From contig CAMLGP010000075.1 in the NCBI GenBank assembly GCA_946479535.1, forward strand, positions 1 to 8,922: 8,922 nt of DNA. The letters are read 5' to 3'. The translations under genes were made by a program, and so were the position numbers. Source of the stretch: an uncultured Bacteroidota bacterium (lineage in GTDB: Bacteria; Bacteroidota; Bacteroidia; Chitinophagales; Chitinophagaceae). Shown here piece after piece: positions 5,652 through 8,922 of the stretch (position 1 is the first letter of the stretch; every line of letters starts with the position of its first letter). Under the pieces are notes generated by a model. The model had not been told where the DNA came from, made no database searches, and saw only the letters and a list, made by a program, of their open reading frames with translations.

Positions 5652-6506
5652 TTAATATCTTGTGGCAGGACATCCTGCTTTCTTATCTCTTTTATAAGCC
5701 GGTAAGCCTGCAATCTGTTTGTATTTATCAAAGAAGTAACGTACTGTATAGGTAACCGCGATATAGTAATAACCGTCCTTGTTCTTTGGGTTACCACGCA
5801 CTGATCCAGCGGCAGGGTAAGGACCTGCACCTACTTCATCTCCGCGATAGGCAAGATCAACTGATTGCTGTCCTTTCAAATCCAGTAATAATGCCGGATC
5901 TACATAGGTTCCACTCACATCATCCAGGAGATCGCCGAATGTATAACGATAACCGAATTCCAGTCCAAGCCGCATATCTTCATTTAATGATCTTTCTATA
6001 CCGATTCCCATTGGAATGCATAATTGGGTAAGGCCATATTTCTTCACCCCGTCAATTACCCCTTCACCTTCAGTAGCCAGAGGTTGAAGTTTTACTTTCT
6101 GACCATTTGCATCTTTTGTTGTGGGATTGAAATGAAATACACCTACTCCGGCAAATGCATAAGGTATCCACCAGCTTTCATTAGGATCTAGGAAGCTGTA
6201 CTGACCCCCCAGTTCCCATTCAAAAAGGCCTGATTTAAAATTCAGATTTCTTGCCTTCATGCTTTCAGTGCCCTTTTTATCATCTCCCGTTAAGGAAGTA
6301 AGAGTAAGATAGCTGCGGGCCGAGATCTTTTCGGTAAGGTCATAACGGACACCGAGAGACCCCATCAGTCTGTTTCCGGAAAGTGTAATTGAATGTGCTT
6401 TTAAATCCCCTGTGTATCCGGCAAGGCCGAGACGGCCTGAAAAGTGAAAATTCTGGGCAGAGCAAAATAAAGGCAGGCTGAACAGCCCGATAAGTAGTTG
6501 TTTCAT
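5652..6506 (-). CDS. DUF6089-type outer-membrane beta-barrel protein
   Basis: This 284-residue protein has a type I signal peptide (MKQLLIGLFSLPLFCSAQ, cleavage about residue 17 or 18; the residue before Cys15 is Phe, so it is not a good lipobox). Alternating amphipathic strands typical of a small outer-membrane barrel follow. Landmarks resembling the Bacteroidota DUF6089 family are G-Y-T-G-D-L at 30-35, A-G-V-G-V-F-H-F-N-P at 119-128, L-Q-P-L-A-T-E-G-E-G at 140-149, L-G-L-E-F-G-Y-R at 180-187 and F-G-D-L-L-D-D-V-S-G-T-Y at 190-201. A final aromatic strand (Y-Y-Y-I-A-V-T-Y-T-V-R-Y-F-F at 246-259) is followed by a short basic tail ending C-P-A-T-R-Y. The molecular role of the family is not established; a structural or transport role in the outer membrane is inference. 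No convincing promoter was found upstream, and the 5' side faces the 11-bp repeat region. Confidence 0.85.
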   Translation of the reverse strand: MKQLLIGLFSLPLFCSAQNFHFSGRLGLAGYTGDLKAHSITLSGNRLMGSLGVRYDLTEKISARSYLTLTSLTGDDKKGTESMKARNLNFKSGLFEWELGGQYSFLDPNESWWIPYAFAGVGVFHFNPTTKDANGQKVKLQPLATEGEGVIDGVKKYGLTQLCIPMGIGIERSLNEDMRLGLEFGYRYTFGDLLDDVSGTYVDPALLLDLKGQQSVDLAYRGDEVGAGPYPAAGSVRGNPKNKDGYYYIAVTYTVRYFFDKYKQIAGLPAYKRDKKAGCPATRY

Positions 6507-6697
6507 TTGGTTCGAATTAAAAGGTGCTGGCTAAAGAACGCTTTTTTGAACAAATTAGTATACCCGGATACTTCCTTTTTTAAGTGTTATGATAACAGAA
6601 TCAGTGATTTAGAAGAAATTATTAATTTCAGCAAGGATTTGGGGTTAAGCCTGATTTGTAATAGGGTTTCCAGTCTGGGCCTGGCTATTTCGCTGCA

Positions 6698-6751
6698 TTT
6701 GTGTTGCTAAAGTATTTTCTTTTGTTGCTTGCTTCTTGCTTGTTTCTTGCT
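6698..6751 (-). repeat. AGCAA-type 11-bp units, leftward block
   Basis: On the minus strand, AGCAAGAAACA (6751-6741), AGCAAGAAGCA (6740-6730) and AGCAACAAAAG (6729-6719) are three adjoining 11-mers. After a 10-base gap, AGCAACACAAA (6708-6698) is a fourth. An extra out-of-phase AGCAA core occurs at 6733-6729. The five-base core is constant and the next six bases vary but are A-rich. Confidence 0.85.
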
Positions 6752-6810
6752 TCATTTACGCTGAAAAGTGCCCATTTTTAGCAACAAACAAGCAAGGAAC
6801 AAGCAACGAA
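6721..6810. repeat. Long imperfect inverted repeat (31-bp stem, 28-base loop)
   Basis: Positions 6721-6751 pair with 6780-6810: 27 of 31 positions are Watson-Crick, two more could form G-T wobbles and two are mismatched. The loop is 6752-6779. Both arms are made of AGCAA-type 11-mers in opposite orientation, so the stem is a by-product of, or the reason for, the head-to-head array. Neither side carries a proper T-tract after the stem, so it is not an ordinary terminator. Confidence 0.85.
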
Positions 6811-6877
6811 TAAGCAATAAAGGGGGTGTTTTTAGCAAGAATCAAGCAAGAGGAGAGCAAGAATGAAGCAAGCCGGC
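6775..6877 (+). repeat. AGCAA-type 11-bp units, two rightward blocks of four
   Basis: AGCAA cores start at 6780, 6791, 6802 and 6813, and again at 6834, 6845, 6856 and 6867. Spacing is exactly 11 bp within each block and 21 bp between blocks. Each block is preceded by TTTTT (6775-6779 and 6829-6833). Units are AGCAACAAACA, AGCAAGGAACA, AGCAACGAATA, AGCAATAAAGG, then AGCAAGAATCA, AGCAAGAGGAG, AGCAAGAATGA, AGCAAGCCGGC. Confidence 0.9.
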
Positions 6878-6917
6878 CAGGGCAGCAGGCCACATCGGAA
6901 AGGCCTTTTCACCGCTT

Positions 6918-7027
6918 ATTGCATTCCAACTGCACTCCGACTGCAGCTGGACTGCATCTGGACTGCATCTCGACTGCACTCCATCCTTTTACATCCTCTT
7001 TGTATCCTGCCTGCATCCTTTATGCAG
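6918..7027. repeat. Second 11-bp array: ACTGCA-type units grading into CCTnTTTGCAT-type
   Basis: Six adjoining 11-mers run from 6918: ATTGCATTCCA, ACTGCACTCCG, ACTGCAGCTGG, ACTGCATCTGG, ACTGCATCTCG, ACTGCACTCCA. In the same register follow TCCTTTTACAT, CCTCTTTGTAT, CCTGCCTGCAT and CCTTTATGCAG, whose shared features are ATCC junctions at 6983, 6993, 7004 and 7015. The core differs from the AGCAA family, but the period is the same. As 11 is not a multiple of three, and frames here are not conserved, the array is unlikely to be coding. Confidence 0.85.
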
Positions 7028-7042
7028 ATTCAGCTTTAAAGG

Positions 7043-7068
7043 GAAAAGAAAAACACAGAAAGCTGTTT
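7043..7068 (-). terminator. Weak candidate terminator of the acylase gene
   Basis: About 17 bases after the acylase stop, the minus strand reads AAACAG, loop CTTT, CTGTGTTT, then TTCTTTTCCC. This is a 6-bp stem with one bulged base followed by a T-rich tail. The position fits a terminator but the stem is short. Confidence 0.3.
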
Positions 7069-7085
7069 GCCAGAGATTTTCTGTA

Positions 7086-8922
7086 TTATTTGACCGGGTG
7101 GTAAGTCCTCTCCGCCTTACGCAGAATGGTCTCCTTGTCCAGTGTCATCGGTTTTGTCTTTTGCTGACGGAACAGCTCCTCCTGATCTCGAAAATGGGGA
7201 GAATCCGGGTGGCTGGATGAACCGAAGGTGTTGACGGATTCTATGAGGGGTAAACCATTTTTGGGGTAGCGTACAAAACAGATATATGCATCTCCTGATA
7301 CAACTTTACGAATTCCATTCCTGTATGGCTCTGCATAAGCAGCAGCTAAAACATCGGGTAATCCATTTGCAGAACGCTCCTCATTTCCACGAACCAGTTT
7401 TTGAATATCACCCAGGGTAATTGAAACGCTTCCAAAATATTTTAACAGATAATCATTTGCATATTGATAGGCATTGATACTCTCCTGCCTGGTTAACTGT
7501 CGGGATGGCTGTCCTTTTAATCTGTCAGCCACATAATGATAGATCACTAAAAAAATGGCAGCGCCATTACTGCCAGCAATAGCTCTGCGGTCCCATAGCT
7601 GAAATCTGGTGATAACATTTTTCAATGCAGGATAATCGTTCGCAGACAAACTTAACATTGTATCGATGCCGTAAGGATATTTCAGGTCCTTCGGCAACTG
7701 GTTATCGAATTTGATTCTCTTGAAAGTGGAATAATCAAATTGTTTTATATCCCTTATAAGTTCTGTAAATCGTTGACTGCGGTTATTGTGATAAGTTTCA
7801 AATCCATCATTCCTGTCAAATTTTTTACTATCCAGATTATAAGCAGGATCTGTGGCGAGAAAAGGAGAATGATTGGTGTTATACAAATATCCCGAACCGG
7901 GATTAATGTACTGTGGCAATTCACTAATCGATTTAAAGCTGTTCCATAGTGTAGCCGATGTATTGCCGGGAACTGTACTCTTCCAGTCATATTGCGGATC
8001 AGGATTACGACGGGGAAGCTTGCCATTGCTGATATAAAAGATAGTATCATACCTGTCTGCATACATGATATTGAACATTGGCAGGCTGGTCATGCTAATG
8101 GCTTTATAGAATTCAGTAAAGTTGTGAGCTTTGTTCATTCGGTACCATTCTTCCAGCGCCTTAATATCCATATTGGCGGGAAGTCTTATGGAAAAAACAC
8201 CTTTGCCGGTCTTTACTGTTGCACCGTATTTACTCCAGTATATTTTTTTACCGATGGTAACAGGCACGCCTTTTACTTTCAGTTTTGCCTTTTTCACTTC
8301 CAGATTCACCCATTTGCCATCAAATTTGTATTGATTGCTGTTAGAAGGGTTCATTTCCAGCTGAAACACATCAATCTTATCCATGTAGTTTACAGTATGC
8401 GCCCATCCCAGGTTTTCATTGGTGCCATGAAAGATCAGGCATCCTCCCGGAAAAACGCCACCAAGCATATTCCAACCCTGCTCAGTTTGTATATGCGCTT
8501 CATAGAATGCCGAAGGCCCTTCCAGCGGTTGATGTGCATTGATTGCAAGAAAAGCTTCACCCGTCTTGGTTCGTGAAGGATGAACAGCTATGGCATTAGA
8601 GCCTTGTGGATTAAATCCTGGAATAGTTGCTATTTTCCCTCCTAAAACCCGTGGTAACACGTCTTCAAGACCGCAGAACATGCTTAAGGAAAATATTACG
8701 GCAGTGAGATAATCTTTTTCATTAAATGGGAAAACCGCCTTGTATTTGATCTGTTTTGGAAATGCCTTGCCATACGCATTTAAGCCGGCCACGTATCCCC
8801 TGACCAATTCTAAAAAATCAGGGCTAAGTGTTTGCCATTGTTGTTCTACTATATCCCTGCACCGGAAGAGTTTTATAACATAATCTGCTTCTGCACCTTT
8901 TCTTCCCAAAGAAGAACCCAGC
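7086..8922 (-). CDS. Penicillin-acylase-family (Ntn) amidohydrolase, N-terminus outside the window
   Basis: The last 611 codons are present; the frame is open to the window edge. A TTG at 8907-8909 is in frame but is an internal leucine (L-G-S-S-L-G-R-K-G-A-E-A-D-Y), not a start. The family is recognised by the processing site G-S-N-A-I-A-V, whose serine (codon 8598-8600) is the expected autocatalytic cleavage point and N-terminal nucleophile of the beta chain. The downstream I-N-A-H-Q-P-L-E-G-P, W-D-R-R-A and G-S-S-S-H-P-D-S-P-H-F-R-D-Q segments match conserved beta-chain regions. About 504 residues after the serine is a normal beta-chain length. These periplasmic or secreted enzymes cut amide bonds of acylated substrates such as beta-lactams, acyl-homoserine lactones or lipopeptides; the H-Q-P-L-E-G-P variant belongs to a less studied branch and its substrate is unknown. 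A signal peptide is expected upstream but not visible. Confidence 0.9.
   Translation of the reverse strand, partial: LGSSLGRKGAEADYVIKLFRCRDIVEQQWQTLSPDFLELVRGYVAGLNAYGKAFPKQIKYKAVFPFNEKDYLTAVIFSLSMFCGLEDVLPRVLGGKIATIPGFNPQGSNAIAVHPSRTKTGEAFLAINAHQPLEGPSAFYEAHIQTEQGWNMLGGVFPGGCLIFHGTNENLGWAHTVNYMDKIDVFQLEMNPSNSNQYKFDGKWVNLEVKKAKLKVKGVPVTIGKKIYWSKYGATVKTGKGVFSIRLPANMDIKALEEWYRMNKAHNFTEFYKAISMTSLPMFNIMYADRYDTIFYISNGKLPRRNPDPQYDWKSTVPGNTSATLWNSFKSISELPQYINPGSGYLYNTNHSPFLATDPAYNLDSKKFDRNDGFETYHNNRSQRFTELIRDIKQFDYSTFKRIKFDNQLPKDLKYPYGIDTMLSLSANDYPALKNVITRFQLWDRRAIAGSNGAAIFLVIYHYVADRLKGQPSRQLTRQESINAYQYANDYLLKYFGSVSITLGDIQKLVRGNEERSANGLPDVLAAAYAEPYRNGIRKVVSGDAYICFVRYPKNGLPLIESVNTFGSSSHPDSPHFRDQEELFRQQKTKPMTLDKETILRKAERTYHPVK

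Follow-up and report, generated by a model that had tools for sequence, protein, structure and literature searches.

Dispersed palindromes shape bacterial chromosomes. To our knowledge, the familiar families owe their movement to RAYTs or IS transposases and lack an internal helical period, and we know of no REP for which an internal 11-bp step is a feature. In the parC site of plasmid R1, repeats lie in two blocks about a centre. The ParR protein of the same plasmid works with 11-bp repeats, of which at least two are needed according to the relevant part of PMC9426499, and a title cited there speaks of ten direct repeats flanking a promoter. REPs are described, in the sections of PMC3116915 and PMC3733652 that deal with them, as short, non-coding, extragenic, palindromic, multi-copy, hairpin-forming and non-autonomous sequences of 20–40 bp with a GTAG or CGTC tag. 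Arrays of the heptamer TAACTGA are reported from Beggiatoaceae, Cyanobacteria and five Bacteroidetes, and in the genome described they are placed mostly just upstream of start codons (PMC4679880, the part on these arrays). Among the matches listed in searches of the open-licence PMC literature there was no paper on 11-bp arrays of the kind considered below in Chitinophaga or Bacteroidetes.

The window analysed here is a stretch of 8,922 nucleotides from an uncultured member of the Chitinophagaceae. It carries a block of AGCAA-led 11-bp units within a 579-base gap (6507–7085) whose flanking genes, for a DUF6089 protein and a penicillin amidase, are both read from the minus strand. A second 11-base array with a different core (6920–7018), absent from the original prediction for this locus, starts about 50 bases past the first. 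Our best reading is that the block belongs to a family of non-coding palindromic elements, dispersed in multiple copies through some Chitinophagaceae, soil bacteria related to Segetibacter. The carriers are a Segetibacter genome and a genus with large genomes (G106, G416, G418 and G444) that we guess to be Chitinophaga. The features are as follows.

5652–6506, minus strand: DUF6089 outer-membrane beta-barrel gene, used as synteny anchor
6704–6708, minus strand: outer left core TTGCT, 21 bp from the next core
6725–6751, minus strand: inner left block, cores at 6725–6729, 6736–6740 and 6747–6751
6758–6762, minus strand: fourth inner left core, degraded to ACGCT and aligned to AAGGT in L001, the nearest relative
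6763–6779, no strand: centre GAAAAGTGCCCATTTTT, whose GAAAAA also occurs in three copies in the genome of that relative (G001)
6780–6817, plus strand: inner right block, four AGCAA cores starting at 6780, 6791, 6802 and 6813
6818–6833, plus strand: spacer with a G run and a T run before the outer block, giving the 21-bp step
6834–6871, plus strand: outer right block, four AGCAA cores starting at 6834, 6845, 6856 and 6867
6920–6978, plus strand: second array, unit TGCAyTCCGAC, six TGCA cores at 6920, 6931, 6942, 6953, 6964 and 6975
6983–7018, plus strand: tail of the second array, ATCC at 6983, 6993, 7004 and 7015 (one step of 10)
7086–8921, minus strand: penicillin amidase gene, running off the window

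All twelve AGCAA-led cores that had been reported in two orientations are exactly where they were placed, the four leftward ones (TTGCT) ending at 6751, 6740, 6729 and 6708 and the eight rightward ones starting at the positions listed, and the steps of 11 within blocks and 21 between blocks are exact as well. The 31-bp stem drawn from the inner units is present, with four mismatches: 27 of 31 positions match between 6721–6751 and 6780–6810, across a 28-base loop. Inside this apparent loop lies an additional degraded core in 11-bp phase, ACGCT at 6758–6762, which the original prediction lacked and which gives the left arm four inner units, equal to the right arm. Both arms then read as four units, a step of 21 and further units. 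The proposed comparison with shuffled intergenic sequence bears out the regularity, since the 579-base region holds eight pairs of AGCAA 11 apart on both strands together, whereas 1000 dinucleotide shuffles averaged 0.014 such pairs and never had more than one.

Set beside the described systems, the family to which this block belongs resembles REPs and REPINs in being an extragenic palindrome in several to many copies. Its members, however, measure roughly 95–250 bp overall, with outer edges that fade, and are built of 11-bp units, and GTAG, as judged by eye, lies inside some units and marks no constant end. Like a MITE, the family is multi-copy and gene-free, has inverted arms and includes one insertion with an empty site (L258, below), but defined terminal inverted repeats and a clear target duplication are not apparent in it, and it has the 11-bp step. 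With ParR/parC it shares several 11-bp units with a constant core, one helical turn apart and in two blocks about a centre; unlike parC, its units are head-to-head rather than direct and it is dispersed over the chromosome. The TAACTGA arrays are also intergenic, occur in many sets in some genomes and are patchily distributed, including in Bacteroidetes, but they repeat a fixed 7-base sequence without spacers and mostly stand just before start codons (PMC4679880, same part). AGCAA arrays in phage replication genes have the same core, variable spacers and a step of 10 or 11 bp, but are mostly coding and run in one direction. The earlier statement that no standard feature class fits was therefore too strong, as REP/MITE-like palindromes and iteron arrays come close.

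Relatives were sought through the DUF6089 protein, which gave 12 loci, and the search for further arrays covered genomes of relatives. The nearest, L001, comes from a Segetibacter metagenome assembly and has 94% protein identity in DUF6089; the DNA around the block is 84–85% identical and gene order is kept. L001 retains the inner-arm layout with a single-base gap at the centre and many bases differing, and the outermost units do not align. Over the alignable arms, 40 of 50 core bases are identical as against 25 of 51 spacer bases (Fisher P = 0.0017, for this one pair of genomes), and the centre and T-run gap agree at 20 of 24 bases. Spacing and cores thus appear to be what is kept. Phase and orientation survive at the orthologous site, the opposite of the alignment outcome that would have refuted the original prediction. 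Cores better conserved than spacers are expected of phased binding sites, one of the two roles then offered beside a structured RNA, and the original interpretation is partly supported.

The genome of L001 (G001, a 4.6-Mb draft) yields 13 matches to three AGCAA cores at 11 bp, falling at three loci, and no match to a reversed-control pattern. All three copies are head-to-head with four inner units per arm, some cores being changed at one base; beyond the inner units the step widens to 22 in the left arm and 21 in the right before further units follow. Like the window block, these copies are mirrored about a GAAAA-led centre, in which GAAAAA continues as ATTT in two copies and as CATCAAAAACT in the third. 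The spacer before the outer right block reads GGGGCTRTTTTT in two copies and GGGCCCTTTTTT in the third, with the 21-bp step in all.

Further 11-bp-phased AGCAA arrays, which the original prediction had proposed to look for, are thus present in relatives, in G001 and also in G106, G416, G418 and G444. The head-to-head pattern occurs in 5 of 394 genomes of the family (G001, G106, G043, G188 and G377), and a close pattern in 1 of 148 genomes of the phylum, G106 itself. We rejected G043 and G188 as element copies because their matches lie inside ORFs of 321 and 319 codons, the former with no Pfam match; G377 has a single head-to-head match, which is intergenic. About 14 loci of two types are found in G106, one with the unit TAGCAAGGATG around AAACACCAGTGTTT, the other combining GAACGAAGGTT as its inner unit with AGCAAGGAT as its outer one. 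Across the family the unit core is AGCAA, or AGCAAGGAT in the large genomes, with a looser spacer, and the large-genome units are longer than those of the window (AGCAAGGATNN). A search with AGCARGGATNNAGNARGGAT matched 9 of 79 genomes of the large-genome genus, its control giving no matches; four of the nine (G106, G416, G418 and G444) contain a multi-copy palindrome, and each of the remaining five gives 1 to 3 matches, some of them not palindromic. A form of ~95 bp occupies 19 loci in G418 (one a 28-base fragment), 10 in G416 and 10 in G444 (one a 25-base fragment), and was not found in G458 or G398. By eye, the strands of copies are mixed along the replichores. Window positions 6690–7035 had no match among 72,556 plasmids, nor did one G106 element among 50,697 phage records. 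Beside a type-A element, the G106 locus L042 also contains two extra 11-bp families, GAGTCCAANNN and AAAGGGCNNNN, three units each by eye, at about 1690–1725 and 1361–1394.

The copies are both dispersed and inherited: among the 29 loci of G416, G418 and G444, no two loci of one genome have common flanks (E 1e-20, over 150 bp), and 8 of the 10 G418 loci fetched have one or both flanks in common with a copy in G416 or G444. At L258, G418 contains about 125 extra bp (126 or 123 bases) inside the T-run of a terminator, and the site is empty in G416 and G444, where the flanks meet at the T-run. Because G418 is nearer to G416 (94–96% identity around the site) than to G444 (89%), an insertion is a simpler explanation than two losses. 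The junctions share only the T-run, with no clean target duplication. A second empty-site comparison, at L253, met rearranged flanks, and L258 is the single insertion seen of two tried. A TATTATTTTAAC-like motif noticed by eye near several G106 arrays was considered as a terminal repeat and rejected, being no more enriched than a control motif, with no inverted pairs found. Two orthologous sites differ by inversion, of the element centre at L252/L266 and of the whole element at L267/L262, which suggests exchange or strand switching between the arms. Arm positions pair in 457 of 506 cases, and swapping right arms between copies of one genome lowers the figure to 450.0 (sd 2.5, P = 0.006); this count required a common centre or arms and took in 23 of the 29 copies, leaving out L266, L269, L272, L274, L275 and L277. 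In L273 and L265 the same compensating change is found in both arms. The small excess of covariation is compatible with a hairpin kept by selection, or with one arm being corrected from the other. The family thus displays dispersal mostly between genes, a common layout, inheritance at orthologous sites and one insertion, and a dispersed family that has been newly inserted at least once makes a regulatory or RNA role specific to a single locus less likely.

No ORF of at least 80 codons spans the element at 14 of 18 loci, three of which are overlapped by one at the edge; at the remaining four a spanning ORF of 80 to 194 codons is present, including a 92-residue ORF in the window. With the neighbours of non-window copies read as ORFs only, copies are found in tandem, convergent and divergent gaps. 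They are enriched next to intrinsic terminators. In G416, G418 and G444, 14 of 29 copies have one no more than about 90 bp away, as do 6 of 13 in G106, or 20 of 42 in total; of 400 random non-coding positions in G418, 76 (a fifth) do. The window copy has no intrinsic terminator beside it.

The second array in the window has a core unrelated to AGCAA, with the repeat TGCACTCCGAC in direct order. Repeats of TGCANNNNGAC occur at four loci in G001, one of them orthologous to the window's second array, and in none of 58 other relatives. By eye, a similar ATC-rich tail follows the G001 copies, closely in two of the four. One of the G001 copies sits right after a terminator.

This second array belongs to a class of unrelated 11-bp arrays. 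We measured self-similarity at lags 5–30 outside ORFs in 1.76 Mb from five genomes, with the G106 and G418 stretches chosen partly for known copies, and obtained 14 non-coding arrays at lag 11 and 9 at lag 22. Lags 6, 7, 18, 26 and 27 gave 1, 2, 1, 1 and 1 arrays, and all other lags, including 8–10 and 12–17, gave none. The AGCAA/GAACGAAGG families account for six of these 14 lag-11 arrays, and of the other eight, one (G001 C1:3345) is simply AT-rich and one (G395:44490) is a perfect palindrome. Units unrelated to AGCAA include GTGGACTTGAT, ACATAGGCTTT, ATAACTCTCAG, ACGAAAGGGCA and ATCCTGGGGTT; outside the 14, lag-11 arrays of TACGGGATNGA (G418:128946) and GATGGTTCAGT (G106:3293554) lie under nominal ORFs. 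A second detector, which called an exact 6-mer occurring three times at a fixed lag in G418, G106, G001 and G395, found 13 non-coding arrays at lag 11, two of which are one array in a duplicated G395 stretch and one of which, in G418, falls by eye within a coding stretch that is rich in lysine and perhaps disrupted. Lags 7–10 and 12–21 together gave it one array, at lag 9. No lag-11 array was found in G002 by either detector, and no non-coding one in twenty other Chitinophagaceae (334 kb, the first stretch of one contig each). In those twenty (L388–L407), lags 7 and 14 lead, with 3 non-coding arrays each, and these are perhaps heptamer arrays like those of PMC4679880. Given that unrelated 11-base arrays occur in some related genomes, the 11-base step itself seems to matter.

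Arrays of AGCAA are also found in viral contigs (L103–L222, L424–L500 and L501–L615). Degenerate arrays at 10 bp lie within same-strand ORFs in 79 of 83 cases and those at 11 bp in 83 of 92 among the matches listed. Nine proteins selected from such arrays gave four Pfam matches to DUF6291, two to DUF1376 and one to Lin1244_N, and four of the nine hit PHROGs annotated as replication initiation, primosomal or DnaD-like loader. That phage initiator families as different as these (DUF6291, DUF1376, Lin1244, DnaD-like) have an iteron core in common is worth recording in its own right. Five-unit AGCAA stretches number 115 at period 10, at least 120 at periods 11 and 12 alike, and 13 at period 13, and these viral counts do not single out period 11. 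The head-to-head pattern appeared at 1 of 120 viral loci among the matches listed, L160, where the TTGCT runs are unevenly spaced. We rejected spread of the element by phages on the strength of viral AGCAA, as most degenerate arrays lie in ORFs, several of them replication-type; the viral arrays are a likeness of design, not of descent.

These data bear on several other origins for the block. It might be a set of iterons for a replication initiator of the phage or plasmid type, or a centromere of the ParR kind, which the chromosome has either retained or recruited. The replication-type genes among the viral arrays at 10 and 11 bp are in keeping with such an origin, as are the 29 viral stretches of the shuffled core ACAGA at 11 bp against at least 120 for AGCAA and the need of R1 ParR for two or more 11-bp repeats (PMC9426499, as above). 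We nonetheless regard it as improbable: phage arrays are unidirectional and within a gene whereas the window family is inverted and mostly between genes, the large-genome units are longer and other arrays have unrelated cores, and period 10 is about as common in viral contigs as far as seen. In addition, no initiator or ParR gene adjoins the window array, whose neighbours are the DUF6089 and penicillin amidase genes, and no parM or parR is present among the window genes. A structured RNA or a bidirectional terminator formed by the long hairpin, which takes up the other half of the original functional proposal, seems to us decidedly unlikely, even though the plus strand of 6698–6877 folds at −63.3 kcal/mol compared with −44.8 (sd 3.9) for 200 shuffles (z = −4.75; the minus strand gives z = −2.93) and the arms of kindred elements covary. 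The window block matches no Rfam family at the gathering score, and positions 6450–7150 have no promoter-like site by the sigma-70 consensus, which may not suit Bacteroidota. Moreover, a separate intrinsic terminator adjoins nearly half of the copies counted in other genomes, and tandem, convergent and divergent gaps hold copies alike. Short, mostly intergenic, multi-copy palindromes with covarying arms would also be expected if a RAYT (Y1/HUH) transposase had moved a classical REP/REPIN, but this origin is largely refuted for the genomes searched and is, in our judgement, most improbable. The Y1 transposase family PF01797 is found in two of seven array genomes (G106 and G458, 23 bits each) and is absent from G001, G416, G418, G444 and G398, while 5 of 14 control genomes are positive, and no 11-bp array was found in the 1.5 kb to either side of the Y1 genes in G106 and G458.

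The common period raises a different kind of explanation. Mutation or copying that proceeds in steps of 11 bp, one helical turn, could make functionless intergenic tandem arrays of many sequences, the palindrome arising via strand switching. The period that units as unrelated as those listed above and that of the second window array have in common, with lags 8–10 and 12–17 empty in the period scan and one array at lag 9 in the second detector, speaks for such a process, and the inversions of a centre and of a whole element at two orthologous sites fit strand switching. It is nevertheless unlikely, since spacers have diverged more than cores between the window and L001 with the spacing kept, and elements of ~95 bp that are about 90% alike stand between unrelated flanks, so that dispersal is needed beyond local duplication. 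Tentatively, and with more doubt than belief, we also entertain the broader idea that Segetibacter- and Chitinophaga-like genomes hold a class of intergenic arrays, the window block among them, whose sole common property is the 11-bp period and which dedicated machinery makes or maintains. Each array would have its own core and variable spacers, in direct or head-to-head order, and the machinery would be a family of DNA-wrapping proteins or a copying enzyme that steps one helical turn. The preferred reading, of a dispersed element, has points against it as well. Our search found neither a binding protein nor a transposase for it (PF01797 being weak in two of seven genomes), and a mobile element alone does not explain the common 11-bp step of unrelated arrays. 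Also on this side of the balance are the lone insertion, the small size of the covariation excess, the window copy with no terminator near it, the single genome pair behind core conservation, in which the outermost units fail to align, and the five genomes of the large-genome genus with few matches.

We lean slightly towards a specific form of the dispersed-element reading, in which a REP/MITE-like palindrome serves as a putative helically phased protein-binding array. In each element, 11-bp units make up two arms that face each other head-to-head across a short centre. As the step equals one helical turn, an oligomeric protein could bind all cores on one face of the DNA and may thereby wrap or bridge it. 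The arms would stay able to pair as a hairpin or cruciform if a folded strand is the form in which the element is copied or moved, or if each arm serves to correct the other, and the same putative binding protein may also mobilise the element. If the period proves to be locked at 11 bp across unrelated sequences in one lineage, this would point either to a novel Bacteroidota protein that binds the chromosome or to a novel route by which repeats are made.
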